Part shown: piece by piece, positions 1-25,256 of the stretch
Layout: each line of letters opens with the position of its first letter
Numbering within the stretch: position 1 is the stretch's first letter
Notes under the pieces: model-generated
The model's database searches: none
What the model was told of the DNA's origin: nothing
Seen by the model: only the letters and a program-made list of their open reading frames with translations
Translations under genes and position numbers: made by a program
Origin: Eubacteriales bacterium
GTDB taxonomy: Bacteria > Bacillota > Clostridia > Christensenellales > Aristaeellaceae
Assembly: GCA_028693055.1 (NCBI GenBank)
Contig: JAQUWD010000045.1
Location: 1-33,750, forward strand
Direction of reading: 5' to 3'
DNA: 33,750 bases

Positions 1-27
1 AGCACGGGGCTTTCGCACCTATCTAGG

Positions 28-1521
28 CTACCGCTGTTGCATATTTCTGCAAGTTGGTAAACTTGATTTTAAGTTACTTCCATTATTTTCCTGAATGTAC
101 TTTTTCACGGTAAGAAGAAAAGAACCTTGGAACTTCAAGACCTTGTTCGATATAAAGCCCTCAGACGTTCCGTAACGGGCGAACGACCAGTTTTCACCAT
201 GAAGCAGAACCGTTACCTGTTTGTTTTTCGGGATTTGCTCTCGCAACACCCATTGCTTATCAGGCCAGTCACGAAATCCTGTATTCGCCGTGGTCTTCGC
301 GCACAATGCGTGGGAATCGTCCAGCGGACGCAGCTTAGCGAATTCAACATAACCGAAGGAATCGCCGCAGCGGACATAGGGCTGATTTTGTCGGCTGCCT
401 GAATCATGGGCGAAACCCAGCAGGCTCATTTGCGTACCCTCTTCCACCTCAAGGGTTTTTGGCTGTGCTGTGCCTATGAATACATCGCAGCGCGTCAGCG
501 TCAGGTTCTCGTTTGCTACAACTGTTTGGAGATCAGCGCCTGTCTGATTGGTGCTCAAATAGGTATCCAACATGTACCCCGTAAGGTCGCCAATGCGCAC
601 ATAAGCCCATTGACCGTTATCAGATAATAACTGCGCAGGCGTACCATCACAGAATAAGCCGATGCTGTTGCTGTTTTTGTTTGCCGCATCGCGAAGATTA
701 ACTCGCTTGTCCGGCGCGGAGGAGTGCACAACGATGGTCTCCGCTTCACTAGCCGTGCTAGGCTGAAAGAAGCGCTCGGGTATAAAGCCGCCGTATTGTA
801 CCGATCCATAGAGCGTATAGGTGATTTGCCGATAACCATCCACCTCGAGTAGTACCTGCACTGTATCACCGCTATGCACAGAGGGGACATACTGAAGCGG
901 TTTTCCGATTTCGCTGCACGAGCCGTAAATCGGTACAACCTGTCCTTCCGGGCAGTACACCACAGCGTCGTGCACGCCCGAGGTGTCTAGCCGAAGATCG
1001 CCGGATACGACCGTCATTGTCAAGGCAGATTGATCCACAAAACCGATAAAATTGCTGATTTGCACAAAAGCACTTGTCTCCGTCTGGGCTAGCACACTAA
1101 CGATCAGCGATTCTTCCAAGCGGCCGATCGGATTCCCCTTGTACTCTGCATTGTCAAAGACGTCCGCCGCAACGTTCATCATGGCACGAGGCACCTGCAC
1201 GGGATGCTCCTGCTCAAAGCGCGACAAATCTAACCCATCAACATCCAGTAGCTGCGATCGTTTCACATAGGCGTTCAACTCCACGCCGATCTCATCCATG
1301 CCGCCAAGGGTGATGTAGACCCAATCACCCTTGTTTTCAAGATAGTCATAGGAAATCCACAGGCTGGCAGGCGCAATAGCGATCTGTGTCCCGTTAGGCT
1401 TGCTGTACAATGTAACCGTGCCTGTTTCGCTGCTTAGAACCGCGTCCTGAATGGTATATTCGGCACTAGCCGTGCCGCACAGCAGCATCAAAACGGTGAG
1501 CCATACAAATAATCTTTTCAT
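28..1521 (-). CDS. Exported SH3b-repeat protein
   Basis: The protein (about 497 aa) begins with a Sec signal peptide (MKRLFVW, a hydrophobic stretch, then TASA before the mature part). At least three bacterial SH3-like segments can be seen: near residues 30-90, near 265-325 (VNLRDAANKNS, then WAYVRIGDLTGYM) and near 410-470 (TGFRDWPDKQ, then EGFIS). Such domains usually bind cell wall or peptides; no catalytic domain is visible. An ATG four codons upstream lies inside the GGAGGA ribosome site, so I chose the ATG at 1521, which has that site 7 nt before it. It is the last gene of the five-gene leftward run and follows a hairpin terminator with no visible promoter of its own. Role unknown; wall attachment or ligand binding is inference. 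Confidence 0.75.
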   Translation of the reverse strand: MKRLFVWLTVLMLLCGTASAEYTIQDAVLSSETGTVTLYSKPNGTQIAIAPASLWISYDYLENKGDWVYITLGGMDEIGVELNAYVKRSQLLDVDGLDLSRFEQEHPVQVPRAMMNVAADVFDNAEYKGNPIGRLEESLIVSVLAQTETSAFVQISNFIGFVDQSALTMTVVSGDLRLDTSGVHDAVVYCPEGQVVPIYGSCSEIGKPLQYVPSVHSGDTVQVLLEVDGYRQITYTLYGSVQYGGFIPERFFQPSTASEAETIVVHSSAPDKRVNLRDAANKNSNSIGLFCDGTPAQLLSDNGQWAYVRIGDLTGYMLDTYLSTNQTGADLQTVVANENLTLTRCDVFIGTAQPKTLEVEEGTQMSLLGFAHDSGSRQNQPYVRCGDSFGYVEFAKLRPLDDSHALCAKTTANTGFRDWPDKQWVLREQIPKNKQVTVLLHGENWSFARYGTSEGFISNKVLKFQGSFLLTVKKYIQENNGSNLKSSLPTCRNMQQR

Positions 1522-1539
1522 CTGTTCCTCCATCAGAAG

Positions 1540-1578
1540 GAAGAAAGCCGTCTTTGCATAAGCGACGGCTTTCTTTCC
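1540..1578 (-). terminator. Hairpin terminator after the clostripain gene
   Basis: Inverted arms AGAAAGCCGTC (1542-1552) and GACGGCTTTCT (1564-1574) pair perfectly over 11 bp around an 11-nt loop. On the leftward transcript the stem is followed by a T/C-rich tract. It sits between the C11 peptidase stop and the ribosome site of the SH3 gene, so it probably attenuates rather than fully ends transcription. Confidence 0.65.
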
Positions 1579-1583
1579 TAATC

Positions 1584-3572
1584 TTAATCCAACATATCGT
1601 AGGTCACCCTTTTATTGGCGACATCCCATTGAATTTCAAAGGGCTCGGAGCGTTGAACGTTACCAAACACATCCGTGACAACAAAAGCCATCGCATAAGT
1701 ACCCGCAGGCAGCATCTCGATTGACAGCCCTGGCGCTTCGGGATAAGAGAAGCCTTCTTCAACGCTATTACCGGTAGCGCTGCCTGTGTAAACATTAACG
1801 AATCTCCGTAGCAAGCATAGCTGCATGTTGGCAAAATCACTTACGTCCCATACGTCCCGGCTGGGCAGGTCGGTGGACGAGTCGTTTTGGTTCCATACGC
1901 CGTAGAGTGTATACGTCCCATAAATCGGCATATTCGGATCGGCGGCAAGCGCTTCCGCATCCGTGCTGTACACATAACCCACACGGAATTCGTACTGTAG
2001 GTTGTCTTTTACCAGGGCCTCCAGCTCATTTTCGACAATGAAGGGAATGCGATAGAGCGTCATATCGTCCAGCTCTTCCTTGATGGAAAGCTGGCAAATC
2101 GTTCCGTTCACCGCAAGCCACTCTCCGGGGAATTCATAGTGGAAATAGCCTTCGTCAAAGGAGCCTGGCACATTGACGTCCATGCCGAGAGCAACGTATT
2201 CCTCCTGCTCTTCGTCATATTGCATAAGCTGTGCGTCAACGCTTACAACAGCCTTCGGCGCGTTGGTGATGTGCAGCGTCGGAAACGCGCTGTCCGAATC
2301 GAAACCAGCCTCGAACACCACCGAATAATCGGCGCGCGAAATATCGCTTTGACGCTGCACCTGATCGTAGACCCATTCGGGCGCAGTCCACTTCATGCTG
2401 ACTCTGTCAAGGAACGACAGATAGGACGCACTCTTGCAGTTGCGCGCGTAATGATCCAGTCGTGTGCCCTCATCCTGCGGCGCGTAATAGAACGACAACC
2501 CATGCGCGCCAAGCTGCGCGTTCCCGTGCACCTCGCTAACGACGGCTTCTTGGACGGCGGCAGTCACAGCGTCCGCTGTCTCTTTGCTCAAGGGGCCCTT
2601 AGCCGCGCGGTTGGCCATGTCCACAAGGTCATAGAGCGTACCTTCATCATAGGTTTGCGTGTGCTGTATGTCATAGCTGAAATCGCTGAATAGCTGCGGA
2701 TCGTCAAGCAGCGTACCGATCTCGGCAAACATCTTGTCAAACGCAGAGCTCACTGCGTCAATCTTGCGCAGATCGATGGTGGAATACGTAAGGGTTGCCA
2801 GCGTTGTTTCGCTGATTCCCGTATATTTTTCCATCATCGCATCGCCATACGCCTTGCCCAGCTCCGCCCCATCACAGGTTGGATGATCGTAGAGGTATTG
2901 TAGCCACTGGGTGTAGGGGCCGCCCTCGCCGGGAACGATTTCCTCCGAAGCAACAAGGTAGTTCGCATAGGGCGCAAACGCCTGTGCGACCTCCAGCGTT
3001 GCCATCAGGCAAGCGTCGGTGACGATCGTCTCGAAGGAAACGCCGCTGCCTCGCAGTGCACGGGCAACATCCTCCACCTGCATGATCGCATAATCGTGCA
3101 GCTGATCTTGGATGATGCCAGAATAGCTTCCGCCGCCGTGATCCCACAGCACCAACGCATACTTTTTGGCTGGCATGGCTTCCGCCGCCCACTGGATAAA
3201 GCTTTCCAAGGTTTCGGCGCTAGCCATATTGGCAAGGGGCTGCTCATCCATCAGTCTGAAGCATTCATCCGCATAGCTGAAGCGTTGAAGCCTGTCGCTC
3301 TTGATCTCCAGTTCATCAAAGACCTCCAGTGTATGCCATGTTTCCGTTCCACCTGTTTGGAAAACAAAATTGACATTCTTGTTGGTCGTCGTATCAACGA
3401 TCTCGCCAAGGTTCACCGTTGCCGCCATGTTCGCTGTTTCCAAGTCGGTGCCGCACAGATAGAGCATCACCGTCCATTCGGCAAGGTCATCCGTTTTTTC
3501 CGCCATAGCGGTTACACTGCCGAGTAGCAGCATAATCGCCAAGCACAGGCTTAATAGGCATTTCTTTTTCAT
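1584..3572 (-). CDS. Exported clostripain-family cysteine peptidase (C11)
   Basis: This 662-aa protein has a signal peptide (MKKKCLLSL, ending TAMAEK) and the hallmark of peptidase family C11: the opening strand WTVMLYLCGTDLE, the catalytic His in LWDHGGGSYSG (His145) and the catalytic Cys in VTDACLMATLEVA (Cys188). Clostripains are secreted endopeptidases that cut after basic residues and mature autocatalytically; the specificity of this one is not visible. The C-terminal third (about 400-660) is beta-rich with no assigned catalytic role. The ATG at 3572 was chosen because AAGGAG lies 8 nt upstream; a GTG three codons earlier overlaps that site. It is 22 nt downstream of the M13 peptidase gene, so the two are probably co-transcribed. 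Confidence 0.88.
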   Translation of the reverse strand: MKKKCLLSLCLAIMLLLGSVTAMAEKTDDLAEWTVMLYLCGTDLETANMAATVNLGEIVDTTTNKNVNFVFQTGGTETWHTLEVFDELEIKSDRLQRFSYADECFRLMDEQPLANMASAETLESFIQWAAEAMPAKKYALVLWDHGGGSYSGIIQDQLHDYAIMQVEDVARALRGSGVSFETIVTDACLMATLEVAQAFAPYANYLVASEEIVPGEGGPYTQWLQYLYDHPTCDGAELGKAYGDAMMEKYTGISETTLATLTYSTIDLRKIDAVSSAFDKMFAEIGTLLDDPQLFSDFSYDIQHTQTYDEGTLYDLVDMANRAAKGPLSKETADAVTAAVQEAVVSEVHGNAQLGAHGLSFYYAPQDEGTRLDHYARNCKSASYLSFLDRVSMKWTAPEWVYDQVQRQSDISRADYSVVFEAGFDSDSAFPTLHITNAPKAVVSVDAQLMQYDEEQEEYVALGMDVNVPGSFDEGYFHYEFPGEWLAVNGTICQLSIKEELDDMTLYRIPFIVENELEALVKDNLQYEFRVGYVYSTDAEALAADPNMPIYGTYTLYGVWNQNDSSTDLPSRDVWDVSDFANMQLCLLRRFVNVYTGSATGNSVEEGFSYPEAPGLSIEMLPAGTYAMAFVVTDVFGNVQRSEPFEIQWDVANKRVTYDMLD

Positions 3573-3594
3573 CAAGAGCACTCCTTTTCAGTAC

Positions 3595-5622
3595 TTACCA
3601 TACGCTTAAACGATCTTCGGGTGCAAGGTACATACCGTCGCCTTCCACCACTTGATAGGTATCATAGAACTCCTGAAATTGCTGCGCGGTCACATTGGTG
3701 CGCAGGTAGCCAAGCGGATGAACCTCTGATTGAATCAAAATCTCCACGATTTGCTGCGGCATCCGTGTGCGCCAGCAGCGAGCAAGACTTCGGAAATAGG
3801 TATCGTAGTCAAAGTTCTCTTTTTCTGCGCCCAATTCGAGCGTGCAGGAAACGCCGCCCAAATCAGCAACGGTTTCGCCCAGCGTCAGTTGACCATCCAC
3901 GTACAGACCGGGCAACGCTTCAATGCTTGAAAAATACGCCTGTACCTTGTCCGTGCGCTCCGTGAAGGCCGCACGATCCTCCTCCGTCCACCAGTTGCGC
4001 ATGTTGCCGCTCTTGTCAAACTGACTGCCGGTTGTATCAAAGCCGTGGGTGATCTCATGCCCGATGATGTAGCCGATGGTTCCCAGCTTCGCCGCTTCAT
4101 CGCCGTTTACATCATATAGATCGCCGCCAAGAACACCTGCCAAAATGTTGATGGAATTGTCCGTGGGCGAATAAAACGCGTTCACGGTCTGGGGCGCCAT
4201 TGTCCACTCGCTGTGGTCGATCGGTTCAAGAACAGTGGCTATGTCCTTCTCACGCTGATCATTCGCGATCGTCATCATGGCTTCTAAAATGGTGCCGCCC
4301 TCGTCGTAGCCGCGAAGCGTCAGCCCATCGAGTGTGTAAGGCGACCAATCGTCCGGATAAGCTACACGGACGATCAGGTTGTCTAACTTTTCCAAGGCAT
4401 AGGCTCGCGTTTCTTCACCCATCCAAGTTGCTTTCTCCAAGCGCCCACGGAATACCCTGCGGATATCCTCGACCATTTGGGTCACTTCTTGCTTCGTATC
4501 CGCAGACACATAGGTTTCCACATACATCTGCGCAACGTCCATCATCAGCATCCCGTTGCAGGTCGCATAGGCCATATCCGCCACGACGCTATGATAGTCC
4601 GCCATTCCCGCAATCGCGGCATTTGCGGTATCCATCACGTCCAAGCAGGTCTGATCCAGCATTTGCGCGCAGGTGAGCAGCGTGCGGCAAATCAGATAAT
4701 GCTTGATCTTTTCCAGATTCTCCACTGTATATAGCGCACTTACATTCGCCAGATCGTCGGGATTATGGAGAATAAACGTGTCCACGCCTGCCGTTGTATA
4801 GCGAGAAACCATCTGCGCAATCGGAAAATTGGGGGATATTTCTTCCAACTCTGCAAGGGTGCGACGATTGTAAATCCGCTCGTAATAATCCGCTTGCTTC
4901 ATGTCCGACAGTCCATAGGCGTGGGCAGCCATCCATCCGTCAAAGGCAAAGGCGTCCTCCGCCATGGCTTCGGCCTGCTCCCCTGTATAACCAACGCGTT
5001 TAAGCATCGCCACCATCACCTGTGTGGTGGCTTGCTGTCTGCGCGCGCCCGATTCCGTTTGGGACTTGTATTCACCCGCGTCGCCCAGCAGGAATGTGCG
5101 CCCTGTCACCGTAACGGCTTTATGGTCGCTATCCTTGAAATCCACATCGCTCGCACAGGCGAAAAGCGTGCGATAGGGTACGTCTGTGCGCATTAGATAC
5201 GCTGTTAGTTCATCCATATCAGAAATGGCTGTGATCGCTTCAATGTATGGAATTACGGGTGTCATTCCCAGTTCATTTCGTTTGTCCATGTCCATCATCA
5301 GCCCGTACAGCGTCTGTGCGCGGCGGCCGGCATCTGTGTCTATCGTTTCCCCATTTAAGAGCGCCAGCACTTCACCTTGCACCTCGTAGCCTCGCTCTTG
5401 AAAGGTGCCGGTCATCATCGCGCCCTCGGGATATTGCGCCGTCAACAGCCATTCCTGATTGACCGCAGCGTGCAGGTCATCCTGAATGCGGATTTCATCG
5501 TCCGCAGCGACGCTGCACCCAATGTCGCTGTTGATCCAATCACAGCTTGCAAAAGCGACCGCACTTGAGAAGATCATCGTGCTCGCCAGCGCTAGAGCCA
5601 GTGTTTTGCGTAAACTGTTCAT
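3595..5622 (-). CDS. Exported M13-family metallopeptidase (neprilysin/PepO type)
   Basis: A 675-aa gluzincin with an export signal (MNSLRKTLALALA, ending AVAFASCD). The zinc site is clear: IIGHEITHGFD (HEITH, residues 522-526) and the third ligand in GETVADLGG (Glu583). The upstream NAFYSPTDNSINI motif is also typical of M13. The length matches the usual 630-700 aa of bacterial PepO. PepO-type enzymes cleave oligopeptides rather than whole proteins. Cys27 could be a lipidation site, but FASC is a poor lipobox, so free secretion is equally possible. GGAGGA is 9 nt before the ATG. It lies 30 nt after the upstream unknown gene and 22 nt before the C11 peptidase gene, in a probable operon. Confidence 0.92.
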   Translation of the reverse strand: MNSLRKTLALALASTMIFSSAVAFASCDWINSDIGCSVAADDEIRIQDDLHAAVNQEWLLTAQYPEGAMMTGTFQERGYEVQGEVLALLNGETIDTDAGRRAQTLYGLMMDMDKRNELGMTPVIPYIEAITAISDMDELTAYLMRTDVPYRTLFACASDVDFKDSDHKAVTVTGRTFLLGDAGEYKSQTESGARRQQATTQVMVAMLKRVGYTGEQAEAMAEDAFAFDGWMAAHAYGLSDMKQADYYERIYNRRTLAELEEISPNFPIAQMVSRYTTAGVDTFILHNPDDLANVSALYTVENLEKIKHYLICRTLLTCAQMLDQTCLDVMDTANAAIAGMADYHSVVADMAYATCNGMLMMDVAQMYVETYVSADTKQEVTQMVEDIRRVFRGRLEKATWMGEETRAYALEKLDNLIVRVAYPDDWSPYTLDGLTLRGYDEGGTILEAMMTIANDQREKDIATVLEPIDHSEWTMAPQTVNAFYSPTDNSINILAGVLGGDLYDVNGDEAAKLGTIGYIIGHEITHGFDTTGSQFDKSGNMRNWWTEEDRAAFTERTDKVQAYFSSIEALPGLYVDGQLTLGETVADLGGVSCTLELGAEKENFDYDTYFRSLARCWRTRMPQQIVEILIQSEVHPLGYLRTNVTAQQFQEFYDTYQVVEGDGMYLAPEDRLSVW

Positions 5623-5652
5623 CCTTGCGTTTCCTCCAGTAACTCTCAGTGA

Positions 5653-6531
5653 TTAGTACCCACCATCAAGATAGAAGATTGAGCCAGTATCCAAATCATG
5701 GACAAGGATATGGCTGTCGCTCCACACCGCATTGATCGCTATGTATTCGTCATCATCTGTGTCGATGTATTGCAACGCTTCGTCGTCGATCGGTTCGCCG
5801 TTCTCATCCTGAAAGAGCCGATAGGCAAACTGCGCCAGCCAATGATGAACCGTGCCGTTATCCTGCGTGATCGTAATGATACCTTGATCTATGGTATAGG
5901 TCAGCTTGACAACATCCGCTTCCTCTGCGTCTGTATAGGTCAAGAACTCGCCTGTGCCATCCGCTGCAAAGCGGTAGCTGGGCGCATCTAGCGGAGCGGC
6001 GCCGAGTTTATCGGCTTTGGACCATTCAAGCTCGTCGGCTGACAGCGTCTCACAGGTGGGCAGCAGCAGCATACCCTCGCGCATGGGCAGGAATAGCTTA
6101 CTGGGCTCATAGAACACGCCGTCTTCCTCCGGCACAGCAGCATAGAGCAGCAGCGTAGGCATGTCCGCAGTTCCTTCTACTGTGCCGTCGCCCGACTCCA
6201 TTCCCTCTGATGCAATACCCGTTTTCAGCGTGTAGGCCAGTTCGTCGCCCTCCAGCGTGAACGCGCCGGTCGCAGGGTCGAAGGTATACGCTCCCCGACG
6301 CATGAGCGCATCGCCGGGCGTTTCAGTCGCTATCACCTGCCAGGCTTCATACGCTTCAAAGGTTCCATCGGCATGCAGCACCAGATACTCATATTCGTCG
6401 TTGCTGCTGCACGCCGCCCATGTGCCGTAAAAGCCCTCCATGGAAGCAAGCGTTGTAAAACCATCCTCCTGTGCCAGTGCCACACTATTCAGAAGCAAGC
6501 AGCAAAGAAGTAACCCTAAAAATCGTTTCAT
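5653..6531 (-). CDS. Secreted protein of unknown function
   Basis: I do not recognise this 292-aa protein. It has a signal peptide (MKRFLGLLLCCLLLNSVALAQ) and an acidic, beta-rich mature part. Two blocks share a similar layout of alternating strands: FYGTWAACSSNDEYEYLVLHADGTFEA-type sequence near residues 35-60, and SYRFAADGTGEFLTYTDA near 183-200. The pattern of a W, a 'DGTFE' turn and a following strand is seen in lipocalin-like and other small beta-barrel proteins, but that is a shape resemblance only. The ATG at 6531 has AAAGGA 9 nt upstream; a TTG two codons earlier is less well placed. It sits between the finger-repeat gene and the M13 peptidase gene in the leftward run. Confidence 0.7.
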   Translation of the reverse strand: MKRFLGLLLCCLLLNSVALAQEDGFTTLASMEGFYGTWAACSSNDEYEYLVLHADGTFEAYEAWQVIATETPGDALMRRGAYTFDPATGAFTLEGDELAYTLKTGIASEGMESGDGTVEGTADMPTLLLYAAVPEEDGVFYEPSKLFLPMREGMLLLPTCETLSADELEWSKADKLGAAPLDAPSYRFAADGTGEFLTYTDAEEADVVKLTYTIDQGIITITQDNGTVHHWLAQFAYRLFQDENGEPIDDEALQYIDTDDDEYIAINAVWSDSHILVHDLDTGSIFYLDGGY

Positions 6532-6590
6532 AATCAAAATTCCTTTCTGATATTAATAATGATCCGATTGCACAGTACCTTACGACGTGT

Positions 6591-7535
6591 TTATTCTTGC
6601 GGATAGGTCTCGTTTTCATCGGACGGATAAGTTTCACTGATGTTATCTTCTGAAGGGTACGTCTCCACCCTATCGTTTGCCGATGGATAGCTCACACATT
6701 GATGATTCCGGAACTCGTTGCCAGCCTCAAACCATTCCCCGCAAATTTTGCACTGTACCCGATTGCTGTTTTCTTCTGGATAGCTGACGCATTGATGATT
6801 TCGGAACTCGTTGCCAGCTTCAAACCATTCCCCGCAGATTTCGCACTGTACCAGATTGCTGCTTTCTTCTGGATAGCTGACGCATTGATGATTGCGAAAC
6901 TCGTTGCCGGCCTCAAACCATTCCCCGCAAATTTCGCACTGTACCCGATTGCTGACTATTTGCGGCGAGGCGTTCGTGCGGGCGGTTACAGTCGGCGTAA
7001 CATTATCTTGGAGTGTGATCGTTTGAAGCATCGCCGTAAGCTCCGCCCCAACAACCATATCAATCGTTGTGGGATAATAGCATTCAACCATCAGCGTGTT
7101 TGCGCCTCTTGCAACCAAGTAGAAAGCGTGCTGATAGGAAAGATCTTCCACCATTTTTTCATAAAGAACCGCGATAACCGGGATGGAATCAGAGAACAAG
7201 CCCCCGAGGGTGGCGTCATTCACCGTGAATTCATCCGTCTTGGCTTGCAGCGTTAGTCCATCGGTTGCCTCTTCGATAGAAATGTTGTCCAAATTCTGAA
7301 AGGAAAGGAAAGCCGTTGGGGTTTGCGCAAAATAGACAACCTCCCGGTTTTCTGAATCAACGAAGAAATAAGCTGGGTCATAAGCCATGAAAACGCCCAT
7401 ACCGTTCTCATAGCGTTCCATTGTTACTTGCATTTCACTGTCGCCTATCCAAACAGGCACAGATAAGGTTTCCGCCGATGCTGAAAATCCACTGAATAGA
7501 AATAGTACCAATAGCCAAGCGCCAATTTTTCTCAT
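6591..7535 (-). CDS. Exported protein with three C2HC finger repeats
   Basis: A 314-aa protein with a signal peptide (MRKIGAWLLVLFLFSGFSASAE). Residues about 22-190 form a mixed alpha/beta domain that I do not recognise. Then come three copies of a 31-residue unit starting VQCEICGEWFEAGNEF and ending in HQCVSYPEE. Each has CxxC, 12 residues, then HxC, the spacing of a small C2HC zinc finger. The tail repeats a short YPS motif (ETYPSEDN, ETYPSDEN, ETYPQE). GGAGGT lies 7 nt before the ATG. It is the first gene of the leftward run of exported proteins and diverges from the two-component system. Zinc binding outside the membrane and the gene's role are inference. Confidence 0.75.
   Translation of the reverse strand: MRKIGAWLLVLFLFSGFSASAETLSVPVWIGDSEMQVTMERYENGMGVFMAYDPAYFFVDSENREVVYFAQTPTAFLSFQNLDNISIEEATDGLTLQAKTDEFTVNDATLGGLFSDSIPVIAVLYEKMVEDLSYQHAFYLVARGANTLMVECYYPTTIDMVVGAELTAMLQTITLQDNVTPTVTARTNASPQIVSNRVQCEICGEWFEAGNEFRNHQCVSYPEESSNLVQCEICGEWFEAGNEFRNHQCVSYPEENSNRVQCKICGEWFEAGNEFRNHQCVSYPSANDRVETYPSEDNISETYPSDENETYPQE
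6684..6944 (-). repeat. Three tandem 93-bp units encoding C2HC fingers
   Basis: Units begin at 6944, 6851 and 6758 (reading leftward), an exact 93-bp period. The marker string cattgatgatt recurs at 6697, 6790 and 6883. Units differ at only a few positions, several synonymous, and the third ends early. The near-identity suggests recent tandem duplication or gene conversion. Confidence 0.9.
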
Positions 7536-7565
7536 GAGTATTACCTCCGTTTTGAATGTACTTGA

Positions 7566-7574
7566 ATTTTAGCA
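7566..7574 (-). promoter_or_regulatory. Extended -10 for the leftward exported-protein run
   Basis: On the leftward strand the string TGC-TAAAAT is an extended -10 placed to give a leader of about 24 nt before the finger-repeat gene. No good -35 hexamer is visible at 17 bp, which would fit an activator-dependent promoter. Confidence 0.4.
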
Positions 7575-7654
7575 TATTCCTATCTTCTTTTTTGCGCATT
7601 TCACACCTCAAAGGATACACTTTACGAATTAGCGTAGTTTTTCTTCGCGAGTTT

Positions 7655-7663
7655 TGCTATGAT
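7655..7663 (+). promoter_or_regulatory. Extended -10 for the LytTR/GHKL operon
   Basis: TGC-TATGAT lies about 37 nt upstream of the regulator ATG. The -35 position (about 7635-7640) reads TAGTTT, a poor match. It faces the leftward extended -10 across roughly 80 bp, so the two promoters probably share regulatory sites. Confidence 0.4.
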
Positions 7664-7699
7664 ATATATTGGTATTGTTTATACGAAAGGAAAACAACG

Positions 7700-8416
7700 A
7701 TGCTCTTGCAGATTGTGATATGCGACGACGATGCACAAACGGTTTCGTCGCTTCGAGATATGCTCCTACAGTGTCTTAAATCCGAAGGCTACCAAGCAAA
7801 TATTCGCGTGTACTCGACGGGTGAAGACTTTCTAAAAGATCCTGCACCCTATGACGTTCTTTTCATGGACATTTTTATGCCCGGCAAGAACGGCATGGAT
7901 ATTGTGCGCGAAATGCAGGCGGATGCGGTTCGTCACACCGTTTTCATCACATCCAGCCATGACTTTGCCATTGCGGCCTTTCAGGTGCGAGCCGCCCATT
8001 ATTTACTCAAGCCCTTGCAGAAAAAGGATGTGCAGGAAGCGCTAGGACGCTGCCTTTCCGATCTAGCGAAAGACCAAGTCCTGCAAGTAAAGATGGGGCA
8101 CGATACGTTGCCTGTGGCAATGCGTTCCATCCGCTATATTGAGGTATACAACAAGCAATCCATCCTGCACACCGTGCAAGGCGACATTGAAACGCACACG
8201 ACGCTGGACTATTTATATGGACAGCTTGACAGCAACCTGTTTATCAAAGCGCAGCGCAGCTTTATTGTGAACATGGCATACATTCAGTCGTTTCAAAGTG
8301 ATCGTTTGCTGCTCAAGAACGGCACGATTGTCATGCTTTCGCGTTCAAGCAAAGCTGAGCTCAAAAAACAATACCAAGCTTATTTGTTTCGTCTAGCGAG
8401 GAGGTGCGGCATATGA
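7700..8416 (+). CDS. LytTR-family response regulator
   Basis: A 238-aa regulator with an N-terminal receiver domain (acidic pocket ICDDD, phosphoacceptor Asp57 in FMDIFMPGKNG, conserved Lys in YLLKPL) and a C-terminal LytTR DNA-binding domain from about residue 135 (IRYIEVYNKQSILHT, then FIKAQRSFIVNMAYI). This is the AgrA/VirR/LytR architecture. The open frame extends 48 codons upstream, but the ATG at 7700 has AAAGGA 8 nt before it and gives the standard receiver start. It overlaps the kinase gene by 4 bp (ATGA), so the pair is translationally coupled. It probably controls the flanking exported-peptidase genes; that link is inferred from position only. Confidence 0.92.
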   Translation: MLLQIVICDDDAQTVSSLRDMLLQCLKSEGYQANIRVYSTGEDFLKDPAPYDVLFMDIFMPGKNGMDIVREMQADAVRHTVFITSSHDFAIAAFQVRAAHYLLKPLQKKDVQEALGRCLSDLAKDQVLQVKMGHDTLPVAMRSIRYIEVYNKQSILHTVQGDIETHTTLDYLYGQLDSNLFIKAQRSFIVNMAYIQSFQSDRLLLKNGTIVMLSRSSKAELKKQYQAYLFRLARRCGI

Positions 8417-9756: not shown

Positions 9757-9802
9757 GTGGAATAAAGAAACGACATGACATAATGAAAGGGAGTATCAGA
9801 CA

Positions 9803-10795
9803 ATGAGGAGAAAAATGGTTTCGTTTCTTGTGATGATCTGTTTGATTTGCAGCACATGCATTGCTGCGTTTGGTGAGGAGACAATCGATTATCATGACCC
9901 CTCCCAATGGGCGTACGATCAAATTGGAGATGACAAACAGGCGGATTTATTCCTTGTCTGCCCAACGGTGGATTTGGGACAAAACGGGAATATGAACATG
10001 TCGCTGGAGGATCAACAAACCAAAGAATCCTTTGTCGGCGCTCTGAATATGGAACGCGGTATTTACGAGGATACGCTGACGATGTATGCCCCTTATTATC
10101 GGCAGGCAACGTTCCCTATTTATTCCTTAACAAGTTCCGAAAGGGAATGTTATCTAAGCCTTGCCTATCAAGACGTTCGCGAGGCGTTTCTTGCCTACCT
10201 TGACAGCGTGCCGCAGGATCGTCCCTTTGTTCTTGCCGGTTTTTCACAAGGCTCTGATATGATCCTGCGATTGATGAAGGAGTTTTTGGGCGATCCGACT
10301 TTGCAGGATCGGCTGATTGCAGCCTATTGCATCGGATGGCGCATCACGGACGAGGATCTGGAAAGCTACCCATGGATTATCCCTGCGGCGGGAGCCGATG
10401 ACGTTGGCGTCGTCATTAGCTTTAATTCCGAAGCGGAGGGAATCATGGATTCGCTGATTGTCCCCAACGGAACAAAAACCCACGCCATTAATCCGCTAAA
10501 TTGGCGAACGGATAACACCTATGCAGACGCGTCGGAAAACAAAGGCGCATGCTTTACGAATTACAGCGGCGAAATTGTTAAGGAAGTCAGTGCGCTTACG
10601 GGCGCTTATCTCGACGAAACGCGGGGAACCTTGAAACTGCCGGATATCGCACCCGAGGACTACTCAAACAGCCTTTTCCCCGACGGCGTATATCATCTGT
10701 ACGACTATCAGTTTTTCTACCGCAATTTGCAGGAAAACGTAGCCCTGCGAACCGATGCGTATTTTTCGCAGAAATTGTTAAAGGATGCGGCATAA
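9803..10795 (+). CDS. Exported DUF3089-like alpha/beta hydrolase
   Basis: A 330-aa protein with a signal peptide (MRRKMVSFLVMICLICSTCIAAFGEE). Near residue 45 it has ADLFLVCPTVDLG, and near 100 APYYRQATF, both features of the DUF3089 group. The nucleophile elbow VLAGFSQGSDM gives Ser148 (GxSxG). A later Asp in ADDVGVVISFNSEAEG and a His in NGTKTHAINPLNWRTD are plausible remaining triad members. An esterase or lipase activity is likely; the substrate is not evident. AAAGGGAG is 9 nt before the ATG. The gene starts 46 nt after the kinase stop, so it may be read through from the two-component operon. Confidence 0.75.
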   Translation: MRRKMVSFLVMICLICSTCIAAFGEETIDYHDPSQWAYDQIGDDKQADLFLVCPTVDLGQNGNMNMSLEDQQTKESFVGALNMERGIYEDTLTMYAPYYRQATFPIYSLTSSERECYLSLAYQDVREAFLAYLDSVPQDRPFVLAGFSQGSDMILRLMKEFLGDPTLQDRLIAAYCIGWRITDEDLESYPWIIPAAGADDVGVVISFNSEAEGIMDSLIVPNGTKTHAINPLNWRTDNTYADASENKGACFTNYSGEIVKEVSALTGAYLDETRGTLKLPDIAPEDYSNSLFPDGVYHLYDYQFFYRNLQENVALRTDAYFSQKLLKDAA

Positions 10796-11178: not shown

Positions 11179-13389
11179 ATGAACAGAGCAAAAACGGGGC
11201 TAATCCTGCTGCTGACGATTTTGTTGATACTTTGCGCTTCCTCTGCGCTAGCCGGAACTGCCTGTCCGGGCATCATCCCTTTCACTGAGCCAGCCACAGG
11301 CGAAATAGTGCAGATCTATAACAGGGGCGACGAGTATTTCAGCTACATGACCGATACCGACGGCAATCTGCTGGTGCTGGATGAAAACGACTACCTGCGC
11401 TATGTGACTGAGGAAGACGGCGTATACGCGCTGGGCGGTTCCGTGACACAAGCCAAAGTGCGCACGATCAGCACAAATGTGAACGTCCACAATCATAGCG
11501 ACAGCCTGCAAAGCAAATTGCAGGCGCTGCGAAACGAAGTGGCAGCGAGCCGACCTAGTACCTATGCGCTGACCCCTGATCCCATTCCGCTTGATTATAA
11601 TTTTGTGGGCGACCGCGCCGAAGGCCTTGCTCAAGTATGCACCACCGAAGAAGACAAGTATCTGGACGAACCATCCAATTACCCGCCCATGGATTCAACC
11701 TGCCCGTTGCTGGTGCTCAAGCTGCAATTTAACGACGTCAAATGCATTTTCAGTGATCAGCAGTGGCATGACCGTATCTTTGAAAACGGGGTAACCCAGT
11801 ATTATCAAACCGTGTCCAATGGCAAGTTCACCTATGTGCCCGTTGCGGAAACGGGGGGAACGCTCAACGACGGCGTTGTCACCGTCACGCTGCCGTTTGC
11901 GTGCCCGCGCTATGCCCTTGCCGACCCGACCAATCAGCTGGTACAGAATGACCCAATTTCCGGACTGTATCGCGGTACAGATCATAAAAACTATGCCATA
12001 TACAATATGGGTTCGCTCTATGCCTATGCTATGCTGGAGGCTGAAAGCAGCGTCAATTTTGCCAGCTTCGACCGCAATAACGATGGCTTCATCAGTCCGA
12101 CCGAGCTAGCTGTGTTGGTGGTATATAGCGGCTTTGAGGCATCCTACGGCGGCGCGTACGCCGCAGAGGGTAAGCCCGCCGTATGGGCGCACAGCTGGAA
12201 GTACAACAACATGCTCTCCAATGGCGATTCGGCTGACTATCACTACATGACCATGCGGGTGGGCGGCAAGCGTGTGACCAAGTACACCGTCATTGGGGAA
12301 CTGTCTAATTACACGTCGGAATACGATTACGACACAAAGAGCGGCACGCCCCAGCAAGCACAATACGGCACAGCTGCGCATGAGCTGGGGCACGATATGG
12401 GTCTGCCTGATCTGTACGCTACTAGGGACGCGAATCCGTCGCAGCGGGTGGAGGGGCTCAGCCTAATGGGCACGGGCAGCTGGGGTGCAAAGCCGGGCGA
12501 GCAGCTCTGCTCGTCACCAACACACCTTGATCCCGTGAGCAAAATCTATTTGGGCTTCTATAACGCGGTCAGCACTGACACTACCGGAAACTTCACGCTC
12601 TATGCCACCGAGCCCTCAAGTAACTATAACATTCTGCGCGTCAACACCTCTGACCCGAATGTGTATTACCTAATTGAAAACCGACAATATACCGGCTTCG
12701 ACGCGGGACTGGCGCTGTTCTACGGTTCATCTGGAGGCGGGCTGGTCGTGTGGCGTGTGGATCAGAATGCGTTGCAATCAGGATGGTGGCCGAATACCGT
12801 CAACAACGTGGAAGACCATTATGGTCTGATGCCGATCTTCTTGAAAAAAGTAACCAATCCGGACGTAGAGGTATTCGAGCCGTTCTGGAGTGTGAACTCC
12901 ATTCCTAATGCCACCGTACTCCAAAGCTCGCCACAGCTCACGTTTTCGGCGCTCAGTCTGCCCAACAGCAGCATGAATCTTCTCGTCGAACGTACATTGT
13001 CTTTTGCTGGAACACCCTCCTATAACATACCTTCACAGCTCGTGGATGTGCCAATGACGGAGCTTGATGTGTCCGGCGGCGTCTACGGCGGTTATACGCC
13101 CTACACCTTCAGCCTTTCTGACGCCCCCGATTGGCTAAACATCAGCGCGGCGGGTATGCTCTTTGGCACACCATTGGCGCCATCAACAGCCACATCGGCG
13201 GTCGTGACCGCAACGGATTCGCTTGGGAACACCGCAAGTATCTCCATTACCGTGGGCGAAGTGAAGCCCTCGATTATCCCGCCACAAACCGGCGACACGC
13301 GGCAGCCGCTGCTCTATACGGTGCTGATCGCGGTGAGCCTTGTAGGTCTGCTTTTACTTTGGAGAAGAAGGCGGGTGATGCGGCTATAA
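11179..13389 (+). CDS. Exported M6-family metalloprotease with PPQTG sorting tail
   Basis: A 736-aa protein with a signal peptide (MNRAKTGLILLLTILLILC, ending SSALAG). The zinc site GTAAHELGHDMGLPDLY (HELGH, 401-405, followed by LPD) identifies the M6/immune-inhibitor-A type. Residues about 615-690 resemble a bacterial Ig-like module (PYTFSLSDAPDWLNIS, then GTP, then VTATDSLGNTASISITV). The C-terminus has IPPQTGD (PPQTG at 701-705), a hydrophobic segment (LLYTVLIAVSLVGLLLLW) and RRRR, the layout of a sortase substrate. The ATG at 11179 has GAGG about 11 nt upstream, weaker than its neighbours. M6 enzymes are secreted endoproteases; here it is probably wall-anchored. No sortase gene lies in the window. 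Confidence 0.88.
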   Translation: MNRAKTGLILLLTILLILCASSALAGTACPGIIPFTEPATGEIVQIYNRGDEYFSYMTDTDGNLLVLDENDYLRYVTEEDGVYALGGSVTQAKVRTISTNVNVHNHSDSLQSKLQALRNEVAASRPSTYALTPDPIPLDYNFVGDRAEGLAQVCTTEEDKYLDEPSNYPPMDSTCPLLVLKLQFNDVKCIFSDQQWHDRIFENGVTQYYQTVSNGKFTYVPVAETGGTLNDGVVTVTLPFACPRYALADPTNQLVQNDPISGLYRGTDHKNYAIYNMGSLYAYAMLEAESSVNFASFDRNNDGFISPTELAVLVVYSGFEASYGGAYAAEGKPAVWAHSWKYNNMLSNGDSADYHYMTMRVGGKRVTKYTVIGELSNYTSEYDYDTKSGTPQQAQYGTAAHELGHDMGLPDLYATRDANPSQRVEGLSLMGTGSWGAKPGEQLCSSPTHLDPVSKIYLGFYNAVSTDTTGNFTLYATEPSSNYNILRVNTSDPNVYYLIENRQYTGFDAGLALFYGSSGGGLVVWRVDQNALQSGWWPNTVNNVEDHYGLMPIFLKKVTNPDVEVFEPFWSVNSIPNATVLQSSPQLTFSALSLPNSSMNLLVERTLSFAGTPSYNIPSQLVDVPMTELDVSGGVYGGYTPYTFSLSDAPDWLNISAAGMLFGTPLAPSTATSAVVTATDSLGNTASISITVGEVKPSIIPPQTGDTRQPLLYTVLIAVSLVGLLLLWRRRRVMRL

Positions 13390-13443
13390 AGATTCAAAGA
13401 AAAAACACCGCCTTTTCCGGAATGGCGTGGGTAGAACAAGCCT

Positions 13444-13472
13444 TTGATGCCCAGTCCCCCATCCTTTATTGT
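13444..13472 (+). promoter_or_regulatory. Candidate promoter for the oligoendopeptidase gene
   Basis: TTGATG (13444-13449) and TATTGT (13467-13472) are 17 bp apart, each matching four of six consensus bases, about 35 nt upstream of the ATG. No strong terminator separates this gene from the M6 gene, so read-through is also possible. Confidence 0.3.
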
Positions 13473-13507
13473 TGCGATACAAACCCAATTTTAAGGAGGA
13501 ACAAACC

Positions 13508-15358
13508 ATGACGAAACCACAACGAATTCTCGCCTGCCTGTTCGCACTGATTCTTGCACTCAGCATGAGCTTAACCGCGTTGGCAGAAGAAAGACAGACC
13601 ACTTGGGAGCTGACTGACCTGTATGCGGACGACGTAGCCGTAGAGGCAGAGATCACCGAAATTCAAACGCTAATCGACCAGTTACCCAGCTTCCGCGGCA
13701 CGCTGAAAACCGTGGAGGGTGTGGTGGCGTGGTATGCCTTTCAGGATGAGCTGCTCACCAAGCTCAACCGTTTGGGCTGCTACGCAACGCTCAAGACCAG
13801 CTTGAATGCAGGCGACAGCGCCGCGCAGACGCTCTCCGGACGCATTGACAACCTTTCCTTTTCAGCCACCGAGAGCTCAGCCTTTGCCGCCAACGAGCTT
13901 TTCTCACAGGATGCAGCGTTGCTGGACGAGCTGGAGCAGGATGAGCGCATGACGCCCTATCTGCTGGATTTCCAGCGTGCACGCAAGGAAAGCGTGCACC
14001 TGCTGGGCGAGGAGCAGGAAAACCTACTGCTGCCGCTGACTCGCCTCACCTACGGCGCGAGCGACCTGTTCAGCACGCTGAGCTACCTTGAGCTTCCCTA
14101 TTCGGAAATCGAATTCCCGGACGGCGTGACCCGTACCGCCGATGAGAACAACTATGGTCTGGCGCTGCTGGGCGGCTTTACGCAAGAGTTCCGCAAGTCA
14201 TACTCCGAAGCCATGATGAGCGCCTACGCTTCTTTCCGCAACACCTATGCGCAAAATTTCCAAAACTACTGCACCGGCGTGAGCGAGAACGCCAAGGCGC
14301 ACGGCTATGCCTCTGCGCTGGAAGCCGACCTTGCGACCAGCGATGTGGAGCCCACGCTCTATCGGACCATCATCGACGCCTCGCTCACTGGCAACGACCT
14401 TGTGGGCCGCTATGCCAACCTGATGAAGCAGGAGCTGGGCTTGAGCGAGATCTACGGCTTTGACATGAACCTGCCCATCGCCCCCGAGCCCGGCATCACC
14501 TACACCTATGATGAAGCCTGCGAGATCGTGCTAGCCGCTCTGGCTCCACTGGGCGAAACCTATGTGGCCGACGCGCGCAAGGCGCTGGCGGGCGGCTGGG
14601 TGGACGCATACGCCGCCCAGGGCAAGCGCACAGGCGCTTTCTCCATGGGCATCCGGGGCGCGCATCCCTACATGCTGCTCAACTTTGACGGCACGTTCCA
14701 CGCCATGTCCACCCTCGCTCACGAGCTGGGGCACACCATGAACCAGTGGTATGCCGATCAGGCGCAGGAAACGGCTTACAACGCTAACCCCGGCACCATC
14801 GTCACCGAGGTTACCTCTACGCTGAACGAGCTGCTGCTGTCCGATTATATGATTAAGAACGCGCAGACGGACGCCGAACGCAAATACTACATCGCGCAGG
14901 AGATGAGCACGCTCTACTCCACCTTCTTCACGCAGGCGCAGTTCGCGCGCTTCCAACAAATTAGCATGGAGGCGTTGGAAAGTGGCGAAACCCTTACCGC
15001 CGACCTATTGGAGCAGCTGTGGCTGGAAAACAGCGAAAAATACAGCGGTGGCGAGATGCAAACGCTGACGCACAGCGGCATGGGCTGGGCGCGCATTCCC
15101 CACTTCTTTCAGGGCTATTATGTGTACCAGTATGCGGTTGCAATTTCCGCCTCCTGCGACATCACCCAGCGGATCACCTCCGGCGAGGAGGGGGCTGTGG
15201 AGAGCTACCTGACCTACATCGCCTCCGGCGACCCTGCCTCCACGGCAGAAACGCTAGCCATCGCGGGTGTGGATGCGACGAATGGCGATTTTGTCAACAA
15301 TCTGCTAGTCCGCTTCGGCACGTTAATGGACGAGTACGAGGCAATTGAAGTGAAATGA
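13508..15358 (+). CDS. Exported oligoendopeptidase F-like M3 peptidase
   Basis: A 616-aa thimet-type zinc peptidase. The catalytic motif is STLAHELGHTMNQWY (HELGH, 405-409), with the third-ligand helix ETAYNANPGTIVTEVTSTLNELLL downstream (Glu in the TEVTS segment). The segment near 375-390 (GIRGAHPYMLLNFDG) is also characteristic of PepF. PepF is normally a cytosolic enzyme that cuts short peptides; this copy carries a Sec signal peptide (MTKPQRILACLFALILAL, ending LTALAEE). The ATG at 13508 follows AAGGAGG by 8 nt; a longer frame exists but has no ribosome site. The stop codon is inside a perfect 37-bp palindrome. The M16C peptidase gene follows 65 nt later. Confidence 0.9.
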   Translation: MTKPQRILACLFALILALSMSLTALAEERQTTWELTDLYADDVAVEAEITEIQTLIDQLPSFRGTLKTVEGVVAWYAFQDELLTKLNRLGCYATLKTSLNAGDSAAQTLSGRIDNLSFSATESSAFAANELFSQDAALLDELEQDERMTPYLLDFQRARKESVHLLGEEQENLLLPLTRLTYGASDLFSTLSYLELPYSEIEFPDGVTRTADENNYGLALLGGFTQEFRKSYSEAMMSAYASFRNTYAQNFQNYCTGVSENAKAHGYASALEADLATSDVEPTLYRTIIDASLTGNDLVGRYANLMKQELGLSEIYGFDMNLPIAPEPGITYTYDEACEIVLAALAPLGETYVADARKALAGGWVDAYAAQGKRTGAFSMGIRGAHPYMLLNFDGTFHAMSTLAHELGHTMNQWYADQAQETAYNANPGTIVTEVTSTLNELLLSDYMIKNAQTDAERKYYIAQEMSTLYSTFFTQAQFARFQQISMEALESGETLTADLLEQLWLENSEKYSGGEMQTLTHSGMGWARIPHFFQGYYVYQYAVAISASCDITQRITSGEEGAVESYLTYIASGDPASTAETLAIAGVDATNGDFVNNLLVRFGTLMDEYEAIEVK

Positions 15359-15377
15359 TTCATTTCACTTCAATTGC
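15341..15377. repeat. Perfect 18-bp-arm palindrome over the pepF-like stop codon
   Basis: The arm gcaattgaagtgaaatga (15341-15358) is followed by one t and then its exact reverse complement (15360-15377). The left arm encodes the last codons (AIEVK) and the TGA of the M3 peptidase. No T-run follows, so it is not a classical terminator. It may stabilise the 3' end of the upstream message or tune expression of the M16C gene. Confidence 0.9.
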
Positions 15378-15423
15378 GCTATGGCTTGCTCCTGTGCTTA
15401 TATACAGAGAAAGGAAACCTTCC

Positions 15424-18402
15424 ATGAAGAAAAAATTCTTTGCTTTCTTACTGAGTCTGGCGCTTTTGTTGACCGTTTTCGGGCTTGCCGCCGCCGAAGC
15501 AATCACCCTGCCCCAAGTGGGCGATGAAATCAGCGGGTTCGTGGTGAAATCCATCACGCCCATGCAACCGCTGGGCGCGACTGGCGTGCTGTTTGAGCAC
15601 CAAAAAACCGGCGCGCAGCTACTGTACCTAGCCTCGGAGGACACCAACCGTTCCTTCGACATCGCGTTCCGCACGCCTGCGCTGGACAACATGGGCAAGC
15701 CTCATGTGTTTGAGCACATGACTATTTGCGGCTCGCAGAAGTACCCGGATGCGAACATGTTCCTCTCCGTCGTCAATCAGGCGTACAGCACCTTCATCAA
15801 CGCTACCACCTATCACGGCATGACCAGCTACCCGCTCGCCTCCCTGAGCGAGGATCAGCTGCTGGCGCTGATGGATTATTACCTCTCCGGCGTGTTTGAG
15901 CCGCTGGTGTATACCGAGCCGCGCATGGTGCAGCGCGAGGCGTGGCGCTACGAGCTGACGGACGCGGATGCGCCACTCACGCTTGCGGGCACCGTGTACA
16001 GCGAAATGCAGGGCGCGTTGACCGCGAGCCGACAGGCAGATCATAACAACATGCTCTCGCTCTTTCAAGGCGGCAAAACCGCTTACTTGAGCGGCGGTAT
16101 GCCCTCCGACATTCCCTTACTCACACAAGAATCGCTCATCGCGTTCCACGATGCGTACTATCATCCATCCAATGCGCTCATCACGCTGTACGGCAAGATG
16201 GATTACGCCAGCTTCATGACCTTGATCGATCAGCAGTATCTCTCCAAGTACGACCGCAAGGACATCGAAGTGGAAATGGGCCGCGTGGAGCCTTATACCG
16301 AGACGCTTTACGCCACTTATGACGCACCCGTGGAGCAAGGCGCGCAGACCGAGAACGCCTCCTATATTTATTACAGCTTCGGCGCGGACGGCGCTGAGCT
16401 GGAGGATTATCTAAGTCTGAATCTGCTTTCCTCACTGCTGTGGCAGGAGTCCTCTCCCCTCATGCAGGCGCTACGCGAGGCACTGCCGCAGGCCAGCATC
16501 AGTATGGGTGTGAACATCGATCTCCCTGTGCCTACGTTCTCCATCGTCGCCAGCGGCGTGAACGAAAGCGACCGCGACCTGTTTGTGAAAACCGTGGATG
16601 ACAGCCTTGCGCAAATCGCGGGAGACGGCATCAGCCAAACCGATCTGGACGCGCTGCTCTCCGCCGCCAAGCTGGAGCTGCTACTCGTGGGTGAGGATCA
16701 GAATCTGGGTGTGAACGCCAGTCAGGCCATTTCGCTGTTCTGGACCTATTTTGGCCGAACGGATTACTACCCCGCCTTCGAAGCAGCCATTGATAAGGCG
16801 GACACCCAGCAGATGCTGGATACGCTGAACCGCTGGGTGCTCGGCAATACATACCGGGCTGTGGCTGTCACGCGTCCTGCTGCCGGGCTAGCCGAGCAAA
16901 ATGCCGCCAAGCTGGAAGAAGAGCTGGCGCAGGTGAAGGCCGACATGACCGACGAAGAAATCGCCGATCGGGTGCAACAGACGGCAGACTTCGCCGAGTG
17001 GAGCGCCGCTGCGCCCGACGCCGAGCTGATGGCGCAGGTTGTCGTCACCACACCCGATACCCTCCCCGTGGAGCTGGTACACTACGACGTCACGGACGAG
17101 GAACAGGACGGCGTGCGCTACGTCACCTCCGAGGCGCAGGTAACCGGCGTGGGTACACTACGCTTGATGCTGGACGGCTCTACCATTCCCGTGGAGCAGC
17201 TCCAGGATGTGGAGCTATACCTCAACCTGCTTGGCAGCGTGGATACAGACGAGCATAGCAAGGAAGAGCTGAGCAGCCTGATCCTGCGCTACACGAGCGG
17301 CTTTGGCGCCGGATTGAACGCGCAAAATTCCTACGTGGAAGGTGCCACGCCGCTGTACACAGCTATGCTTTCCTGCAACGTGCTGCGCGAGGATGTACCC
17401 GCTGCCGCCGCGTTGCTAAGGGAGCTGATACTGCGCAGCGATTTCACCGATACCGATACCATTCGTCAATACATCGTCCGCGAGAATTCCTACTTTGAGC
17501 AGACACTGGATGAAGACGTACTCAGTGTGCAGCTTTTACGCGCAAGTGCAGCGCTCGACAGCGTTTCCGCCTACAGCGCCCAGCTTTCGGGCTTTGACTT
17601 CTATGAGTATATGACCAGCATGCTCACGCTGGACGACGCAGCGCTCACTGCTCGTCTGGAGGCGGCGCGGGATTTCGTGCTGAGCCGTACGGGCGCGATT
17701 GTCGCCTGTGCCGGAGACAAGGACACCATCGCCGCCATACGCACCGAGCTGGGCGCGCTGCTGGCTGAGCTGCCCGCCACCGAGCGCGAGCCGGTCGATT
17801 ACTCCGTACTGTGCAAGGATATTCAATGGGACGCCGTTACGGTCAACTCCACCGTGCAGATGAACGTCATCGTCGGCGCTTCGGACGGCTTTACCGGCAA
17901 GGACGTCGTACTCACAGCGCTGATGGATGACACCTACCTGCTGCCGCAGCTGCGCAGCGCGTTGGGCGCTTACGGCGCATATTCCTCCCTGGAGCCGTTC
18001 GGTCAGCTTCTGTATTCCTACCGCGATCCCAATCTCGTCGGCACCTTCGAGGTGTTTGAGGCCCTGCCCGAATACCTGCGCACGGCAGACATCACGAAGG
18101 ATATGGTGAATACCTACATCGTGGGCAGCTACACCAGCCTGTCCCGCCCACAGGGCGCGCTCAGCGGTGCAATCACCGCTGTCAATAACTCGTTGATCGG
18201 CCTGACCGAGGAAATCCGCCTGCGCTGGATGGAAGAAGCCCGCCAGACGACCGTGGACGATGTGCGAGCGCTGGCCGACCGCATCCAGAACCTTGTAGAT
18301 AACGGCGTGCGCTCCACCTCCGCCACCGCCTCGACCATCGAAAAGAACAAGGAGCTTTTCACCTCGGTCGTGACCCTGAACACGTCGGCCAACGAGGAAT
18401 AA
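15424..18402 (+). CDS. Exported M16C (presequence protease-like) peptidase
   Basis: A 992-aa two-halved inverzincin. The zinc motif is HVFEHMTICGS (HVFEH, 94-98), followed by KYPDANMF, FINATTYHGMTSYP and the third ligand in TVYSEMQGAL (Glu194), the pattern of PreP/M16C rather than M16A/B. The length fits the family (about 970-1000 aa). M16C enzymes enclose peptides up to some tens of residues. A signal peptide is present (MKKKFFAFLLSLALLLTVFG, then LAAAEA), so this one acts outside the membrane. The ATG at 15424 has AAAGGA 8 nt upstream; an upstream ATG at 15355 falls in the palindrome and gives a non-family extension. A strong terminator follows. Confidence 0.92.
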   Translation: MKKKFFAFLLSLALLLTVFGLAAAEAITLPQVGDEISGFVVKSITPMQPLGATGVLFEHQKTGAQLLYLASEDTNRSFDIAFRTPALDNMGKPHVFEHMTICGSQKYPDANMFLSVVNQAYSTFINATTYHGMTSYPLASLSEDQLLALMDYYLSGVFEPLVYTEPRMVQREAWRYELTDADAPLTLAGTVYSEMQGALTASRQADHNNMLSLFQGGKTAYLSGGMPSDIPLLTQESLIAFHDAYYHPSNALITLYGKMDYASFMTLIDQQYLSKYDRKDIEVEMGRVEPYTETLYATYDAPVEQGAQTENASYIYYSFGADGAELEDYLSLNLLSSLLWQESSPLMQALREALPQASISMGVNIDLPVPTFSIVASGVNESDRDLFVKTVDDSLAQIAGDGISQTDLDALLSAAKLELLLVGEDQNLGVNASQAISLFWTYFGRTDYYPAFEAAIDKADTQQMLDTLNRWVLGNTYRAVAVTRPAAGLAEQNAAKLEEELAQVKADMTDEEIADRVQQTADFAEWSAAAPDAELMAQVVVTTPDTLPVELVHYDVTDEEQDGVRYVTSEAQVTGVGTLRLMLDGSTIPVEQLQDVELYLNLLGSVDTDEHSKEELSSLILRYTSGFGAGLNAQNSYVEGATPLYTAMLSCNVLREDVPAAAALLRELILRSDFTDTDTIRQYIVRENSYFEQTLDEDVLSVQLLRASAALDSVSAYSAQLSGFDFYEYMTSMLTLDDAALTARLEAARDFVLSRTGAIVACAGDKDTIAAIRTELGALLAELPATEREPVDYSVLCKDIQWDAVTVNSTVQMNVIVGASDGFTGKDVVLTALMDDTYLLPQLRSALGAYGAYSSLEPFGQLLYSYRDPNLVGTFEVFEALPEYLRTADITKDMVNTYIVGSYTSLSRPQGALSGAITAVNNSLIGLTEEIRLRWMEEARQTTVDDVRALADRIQNLVDNGVRSTSATASTIEKNKELFTSVVTLNTSANEE

Positions 18403-25252: not shown

Positions 25253-25256
25253 GTTT

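Follow-up and report, generated by a model that had tools for sequence, protein, structure and literature searches.

The window, the whole stretch of DNA analysed here, is the entire contig C74 (33,750 nt, JAQUWD010000045.1) of draft genome GCA_028693055.1 (3.83 Mb, 116 contigs, 94.6% complete), and it carries an intact LytTR response regulator gene and a GHKL sensor kinase gene flanked on both sides by genes for C11, M13, M6, M3 and M16C peptidases. These five peptidase genes lie closer together than chance predicts. In addition, related kinase/regulator pairs were repeatedly found beside exported peptidases in other genomes, suggesting that extracellular protein digestion is under local control. 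We consider it about as likely as not that this region forms an accessory island for exported proteolysis, directly and locally controlled by the LytTR/GHKL pair, by analogy with the action of VirSR on alpha-clostripain.

Domains were assigned by Pfam and NCBIfam profile searches of the window proteins, and export segments by a simple threshold on N-terminal hydrophobicity. The leftward run, moving away from the regulator, comprises the finger protein, an unknown secreted protein, M13, C11 and the SH3 protein, and the rightward run after the regulator comprises the kinase, the DUF3089 protein, M6, M3 and M16C. The features, with those of a decayed pair to their right, are as follows.

28-1533, minus strand: SH3-domain protein, exported (Pfam SH3_3, 46.9 bits)
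1584-3581, minus strand: C11 (clostripain-family) peptidase, exported (Pfam Peptidase_C11, 130 bits)
3595-5622, minus strand: M13 (PepO-like) peptidase, exported (Pfam M13_N, 212 bits; M13, 159 bits)
5653-6537, minus strand: unknown exported protein (lipocalin-like matches, all sub-threshold; N-terminal hydrophobic segment)
6591-7535, minus strand: exported protein carrying three nearly identical C2HC finger units (C2H2/C2HC-like), divergent from the regulator
7536-7699, no strand: divergent promoter region (weak candidate paired repeat at 7567 and 7589)
7700-8416, plus strand: LytTR response regulator (Response_reg, 52.6 bits; LytTR, 65.1 bits; start read from the sequence)
8404-9756, plus strand: GHKL sensor kinase with seven hydrophobic segments (HATPase_c_5, 59.3 bits)
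9803-10795, plus strand: DUF3089 hydrolase-like protein, exported (Pfam, 166 bits)
11179-13389, plus strand: M6 metallopeptidase with sorting-like C-terminus (TIGR03296, 137.8 bits; cut-off 110.8)
13469-15358, likely start 13508, plus strand: M3 (PepF-like) peptidase, exported (445 bits, below the equivalog cut-off of 490.6)
15355-18402, likely start 15424, plus strand: M16C (presequence-protease-like) peptidase, exported (M16C_assoc, PreP_C)
18533-19803, plus strand: decayed sensor kinase (split over two frames, one with the N-terminal part and one with a GHKL end fragment; middle missing)
19812-20468, minus strand: decayed LytTR regulator (Pfam LytTR, 62.7 bits; stop near the N-terminus)

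The five peptidase families with export signals around the pair, as named in a sequence-only reading of this DNA, were borne out by these searches, and the catalytic motifs were intact: HEITH and ETVAD in M13, HELGH in M3, HELGHDMGLPDLY in M6, HVFEH in M16C, and DHG and DAC in C11. The domains of the co-located proteins listed in that reading were likewise found, including an intact GFSQG motif in the DUF3089 protein. A hydrophobic N-terminal segment was detected in the five peptidases and in three of these neighbours (the DUF3089, unknown secreted and finger proteins), whereas the SH3 protein fell below the threshold, its N-terminus nonetheless reading like a signal peptide. The regulator start, previously placed at 7556, was corrected to about 7700. 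The intact pair belongs to the two-component systems, with receiver and LytTR domains and the adjacent GHKL kinase all above the Pfam cut-offs. Because of its sorting-like C-terminus, PPQTGD (LPXTG model, 17.3 bits; cut-off 15.9), the M6 protein is probably wall-anchored. The closest solved structures were the zymogen 6mzo for C11, InhA (4yu5) for M6 and the presequence proteases 2fge and 6xos for M16C; the kinase had no match among solved structures at E 0.01. The finger-repeat array consists of about three 93-bp units. It was also noticed that window positions 1-127 are repeated with 99.2% identity at the end of contig C68 (L033, 16292-16418); the final codons of the SH3 gene fall inside this contig-end repeat, so a repeat element may have changed the C-terminus of its product.

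In the whole genome, 15 matches to the five families were identified (six C11, two M16C, two M13 at E 1e-40, two M6 and three M3), among which are two C11 at contig ends (possibly one gene), one C11 with a stop, one M6 below the cut-off and one M3 of only 22% identity. Five of the 15 fall within 18.4 kb, for which a union bound over anchors gave 1e-4 under assumed random placement, and contigs C68 and C74 together hold eight. On C68, 1) an SH3 protein, a small secreted protein and M13 are divergent from a LytTR-PAS protein (L032, 9107-13364), and 2) an SH3 protein, a small secreted protein, a repeat protein, C11 and M16C lie near two other response regulators (L033, 4903-12833). The C68 cluster thereby repeats the window layout, with M13, SH3 and small secreted protein genes pointing away from a LytTR gene, and it counts in favour of local control. 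The C11 genes on C106 and C61 (L076, 8551-11300; L077, 7680-10403) each adjoin a small secreted protein, the L077 copy being interrupted. A C11 gene is also cut at the ends of C102 and C116 (L079, 9986-10546; L078, 58-1830); since the overlapping contig ends read almost alike, these pieces may be one gene. Elsewhere, genome G149 (3.0 Mb) had fifteen C11 matches.

Kinase homologues were present in 76 of 200 genomes of the family (E 1e-10), none exceeding 29% identity over the full length, with partial matches of up to 32%. The 29 best kinase loci outside the window's own genome, one per genome, were extended and read. In nine of them, from seven genera, a gene for C11, M16C or M13 lay inside a 5-kb limit, the distance to the kinase being 9-952 bp (C11 in L040, L048, L049, L054 and L060; M16C in L042, L043 and L046; M13 in L063), and none of these families was seen within 5 kb at the other 20. 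Among 20 further kinase loci from a 308-genome search (tblastn for all 20, gene lists for 13), four were near C11 (L131, L140, L142 and L143), only two of them independent since L131 and L140 are close kin of earlier loci, and the other 16 were near none of the five families. Links may have escaped notice, since for 26 of the 49 loci the sequence read on one or both sides stopped short of 5 kb. Among 40 related genomes, including the window's own (149 LytTR matches, distance limit 5 kb), LytTR genes beside the closest kinases were near C11, M16C or M13 in 5 of 12 cases versus 1 of 129 for other LytTR genes (p = 1e-5), and the further loci gave 4 of 20 versus the same 1 of 129 (p = 0.001), both p values ignoring shared ancestry and the 12 LytTR genes having been picked after the first loci were seen. 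On the kinase tree four label changes were needed for C11 and three for M16C, so that one inherited event fails to explain the linkage without losses. Neighbours form one-strand runs in L046 (regulator, kinase, AIM24, M16C) and in L048 and L054 (C11, regulator, kinase). An AIM24-family gene adjoins M16C in L046 (159-6095) and in L069 (9639-16549), the latter having two M16C copies. An apparent M6 neighbour in L132 was a short match inside a non-peptidase protein and was not counted, and the stretches read around four own-genome kinases (L071, L073, L074 and L075) contained none of the five families.

In the promoters of g26 genomes, CACTCGTCCCA occurs twice, 20 bp apart, in the gap that separates the regulator from the divergently transcribed C11 or small secreted gene. 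The pair is present in L035, L037, L038, L040, L130 and L131 (up to two mismatches) and, in degenerate form, in L134 of another genus; L040 and L131 have a second, looser repeat pair between C11 and the secreted gene. Out of 300 shuffles, the repeat pair was matched by 0-1 for L035 and L040, 0-2 for L131, 12-14 for L049 and 7-51 for L134. When 24 genomes were searched for the pattern, 20 matches were obtained, nine of them at kinase-locus promoters, including the single match in each of G163 and G185 (one contig each) and both matches in each of G132 (two contigs) and G215 (a 70% complete draft). The 11 matches away from kinase loci look like chance and mean little, since a backwards control pattern was commoner overall (54). 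A different pair, AATTGCCGAA, 19 bp apart, occupies the M16C-regulator promoter of L042 (0 of 300 shuffles). The g26 pair is a predicted LytTR-type operator before the peptidase and its secreted partner. In the window, the repeats at 7567 and 7589 are similar to a pair on C68, in its divergent LytTR promoter (0 of 100 shuffles, then 6 of 1000), the likeness being the highest of 22 intergenic regions; with six regions tried, the value is about 0.04 after correction, and the pair is a weak candidate, a lead rather than a result. Promoter and terminator scans were not used, as they returned fewer sites than in shuffles.

From the relatives, we infer that the pair controls its neighbours through a local operator. 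The membrane GHKL kinase would sense a cue and phosphorylate the LytTR regulator, which would bind paired direct repeats in the divergent promoter (7536-7699). Binding would drive a left transcription unit (finger protein, unknown protein, M13, C11 and SH3 protein) and a right one (regulator, kinase, DUF3089 and probably M6, M3 and M16C). M6 and C11 could then cut proteins outside the cell and M13, M3 and M16C, families that prefer peptides, could shorten the products. As to the earlier idea of a self-contained programme, the occurrence of related pairs beside exported peptidases in seven genera and the LytTR-type repeat in one clade agree with it, the window itself has no firm operator, and peptide sensing, ordered breakdown and feedback are conjecture. 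In our judgement, local control is more credible for the g26 version than for the window.

Several observations weigh against local control in the window. The g26 motif has no copy in the window promoter, and none of the direct repeats in the window gaps clearly beats shuffles singly. A gap of 380 bp separates DUF3089 from M6, and the window kinase forms a long branch within no supported group of linked kinases. In the same genome, the contigs of the C106 and C61 C11 genes have no LytTR match, and the LytTR protein on C68 has no match to a receiver domain. Furthermore, in the 40-genome set 159 of the 165 peptidase genes outside the window's own genome were more than 5 kb from any LytTR match. 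The six nearer genes were C11 3/73, M16C 2/34, lower-identity M16C 1/11, M13 0/16 and M3 0/31, with chance expectations of 0.78, 0.57, 0.18, 0.24 and 0.45, respectively; these peptidases therefore usually occur without the regulator. Co-occurrence in relatives had been set beforehand as a test, and its outcome was divided: judged by these distant peptidases the link breaks down and the refuting outcome largely came about, whereas judged by the nine linked kinase loci the link stands. The five-family set together with the pair was in no other locus examined, so that its proposal as a conserved system did not hold among these relatives.

These data bear on another possibility, somewhat unlikely in our view, that the island is loose: peptidases and surface proteins would have been gathered by transfer and duplication, with the pair regulating only itself, the finger protein or genes elsewhere. 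Such an origin would fit the peptidases of relatives, mostly without LytTR, and the genus mates, which lack most of the cluster (M16C in 0 of 10, M13 in 1 of 10 at E 1e-40, and the window kinase in 2 of 16 at E 1e-20). In four genus mates (L096-L099) C11 has different surroundings, which recur at own-genome C102, and M6 (TIGR03296) was found in three of the 40 genomes, the window's own counted. Paralogues of M3, M16C, C11 and M13 are scattered over the own genome, the M3 copy on C95 being 71% and the M16C copy on C68 50% identical to those of the window. This M3 paralogue (L092, 9211-11052) is exported and adjoins an exported protein named by eye as 5'-nucleotidase-like. However, the recurrence of kinase-peptidase linkage in several genera and the local repeats in one clade argue against a merely loose island.

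The loci of relatives also raise a tentative and rather doubtful proposal, that of an undescribed class of sensory module in this bacterial family. Such a module would combine a GHKL/LytTR pair, an interchangeable exported peptidase (C11, M16C or M13) and a secreted partner of PsbP-fold or SH3/zinc-finger type; extracellular protein would be reported to the kinase by this partner or by the products of the peptidases, and the window would be an enlarged member with five peptidase families. The small secreted protein beside the g26 pair, A1, gave a predicted structure of good quality, with a predicted local distance difference test (pLDDT) score of 82.9. The 14 best solved matches of this model were PsbP-family or photosynthetic-complex entries (best E 1.8e-5, template modelling scores 0.47-0.57), followed by DcrB and Mog1, and on this model A1 is a PsbP-fold protein. 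A1-related proteins (91% in profile comparison) accompany M13 and C11 on own-genome C68. A domain shared by the finger and small secreted proteins was considered as a possibility: comparison by sequence alone gave 2-6% and lent it no support, the value rose to 41% with three finger sequences (15% against a second set), and the finger structure model was unusable (pLDDT 45.5). If local control is true, the timing of extracellular protein digestion by uncultured bacteria could be tested on a small circuit in which a single kinase and regulator act through a predicted operator on one or two target promoters, and neighbours would offer a handle on the signals of orphan GHKL kinases.

An improbable alternative concerns the decayed pair (18533-20468), which may at first have regulated part of the island, with the intact pair either a neighbour that came later or one that took over. 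Its closest relatives found are the pairs at L183 (605-3542) and L186 (5987-9583), with 39-40% identity for the regulator and 34-35% for the kinase N-terminus. At both loci a GHKL kinase and a LytTR regulator lie divergent from an exported SH3 protein that ends in C2HC fingers homologous to the window finger repeats. However, there are only two such loci and they are close kin (regulators 80% identical), while at the five remaining finger-homologue loci (homologues occurring in seven other genomes of 308) the sequence read contained neither a LytTR nor a kinase match. To the right of the decayed pair, positions 20758-33750 hold ordinary genes (radical SAM, HU, MazG, MurJ-like, SpoVT and an M20 peptidase adjoining an NlpA-type transporter protein), with ABC transporters and a LysR-like regulator, read by eye, in the remainder to the right end. 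An Rfam scan of the window and a plasmid comparison of its left 400 bases gave no matches.

Among known systems, Agr (AgrBDCA) shares with the window a LytTR regulator and a multi-segment GHKL kinase, but AgrB (PF04647) had no match in the own genome (94.6% complete) as opposed to 7 of 18 genomes searched, so the pair is not of the classical Agr kind; no AgrD-like gene was recognised, a dedicated short-gene search not having been made. It is highly improbable that the kinase senses a peptide made by the cell itself and that the exported peptidases then degrade this signal in a feedback loop: its GHKL layout with seven hydrophobic segments resembles AgrC, and the peptide preference of the M13, M3 and M16C families would suit such a loop, but besides the unmatched AgrB, the g26 relatives have AgrB elsewhere than at their kinase-peptidase loci, and the list of open reading frames (at least 80 residues) has no small gene between regulator, kinase and DUF3089. 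Open-library literature searches turned up no account of a peptidase island that has its own LytTR/GHKL pair.

The LytTR regulatory systems (LRS) HdrRM and BrsRM, according to the portions of the source available, have a LytTR domain, paired direct repeats ahead of their operons at a spacing of 11-13 bp and a regulator paired with an inhibitory membrane protein (PMC6193735). The g26 repeats, 11 bp long and spaced 20 bp apart, are comparable, whereas the window regulator differs in having a receiver domain and a GHKL kinase. Closer at hand are the relatives' loci with C11, a small secreted protein and LytTR/GHKL (L040, L049, L054 and L131), in which the pair is likewise beside an exported peptidase; these loci have one family, a PsbP-fold partner and, in g26, a clear repeat pair, as against five families and a finger protein, but no clear repeat, in the window. 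In Clostridium perfringens, VirSR controls ccp, encoding alpha-clostripain, the one VirSR target conserved in all strains compared, as given in the available portions of the reports (PMC2838878, PMC3146509). Regulation has been demonstrated there, whereas in the window we only infer it; kinase, regulator and peptidase are neighbours in the window and its relatives, whereas those portions do not state adjacency of VirSR to ccp. Paired repeats before the target are clear in the g26 relatives, the window having only the weak pair shared with C68. What the window shares with VirSR-ccp is the C11 target gene itself, present with intact motifs.
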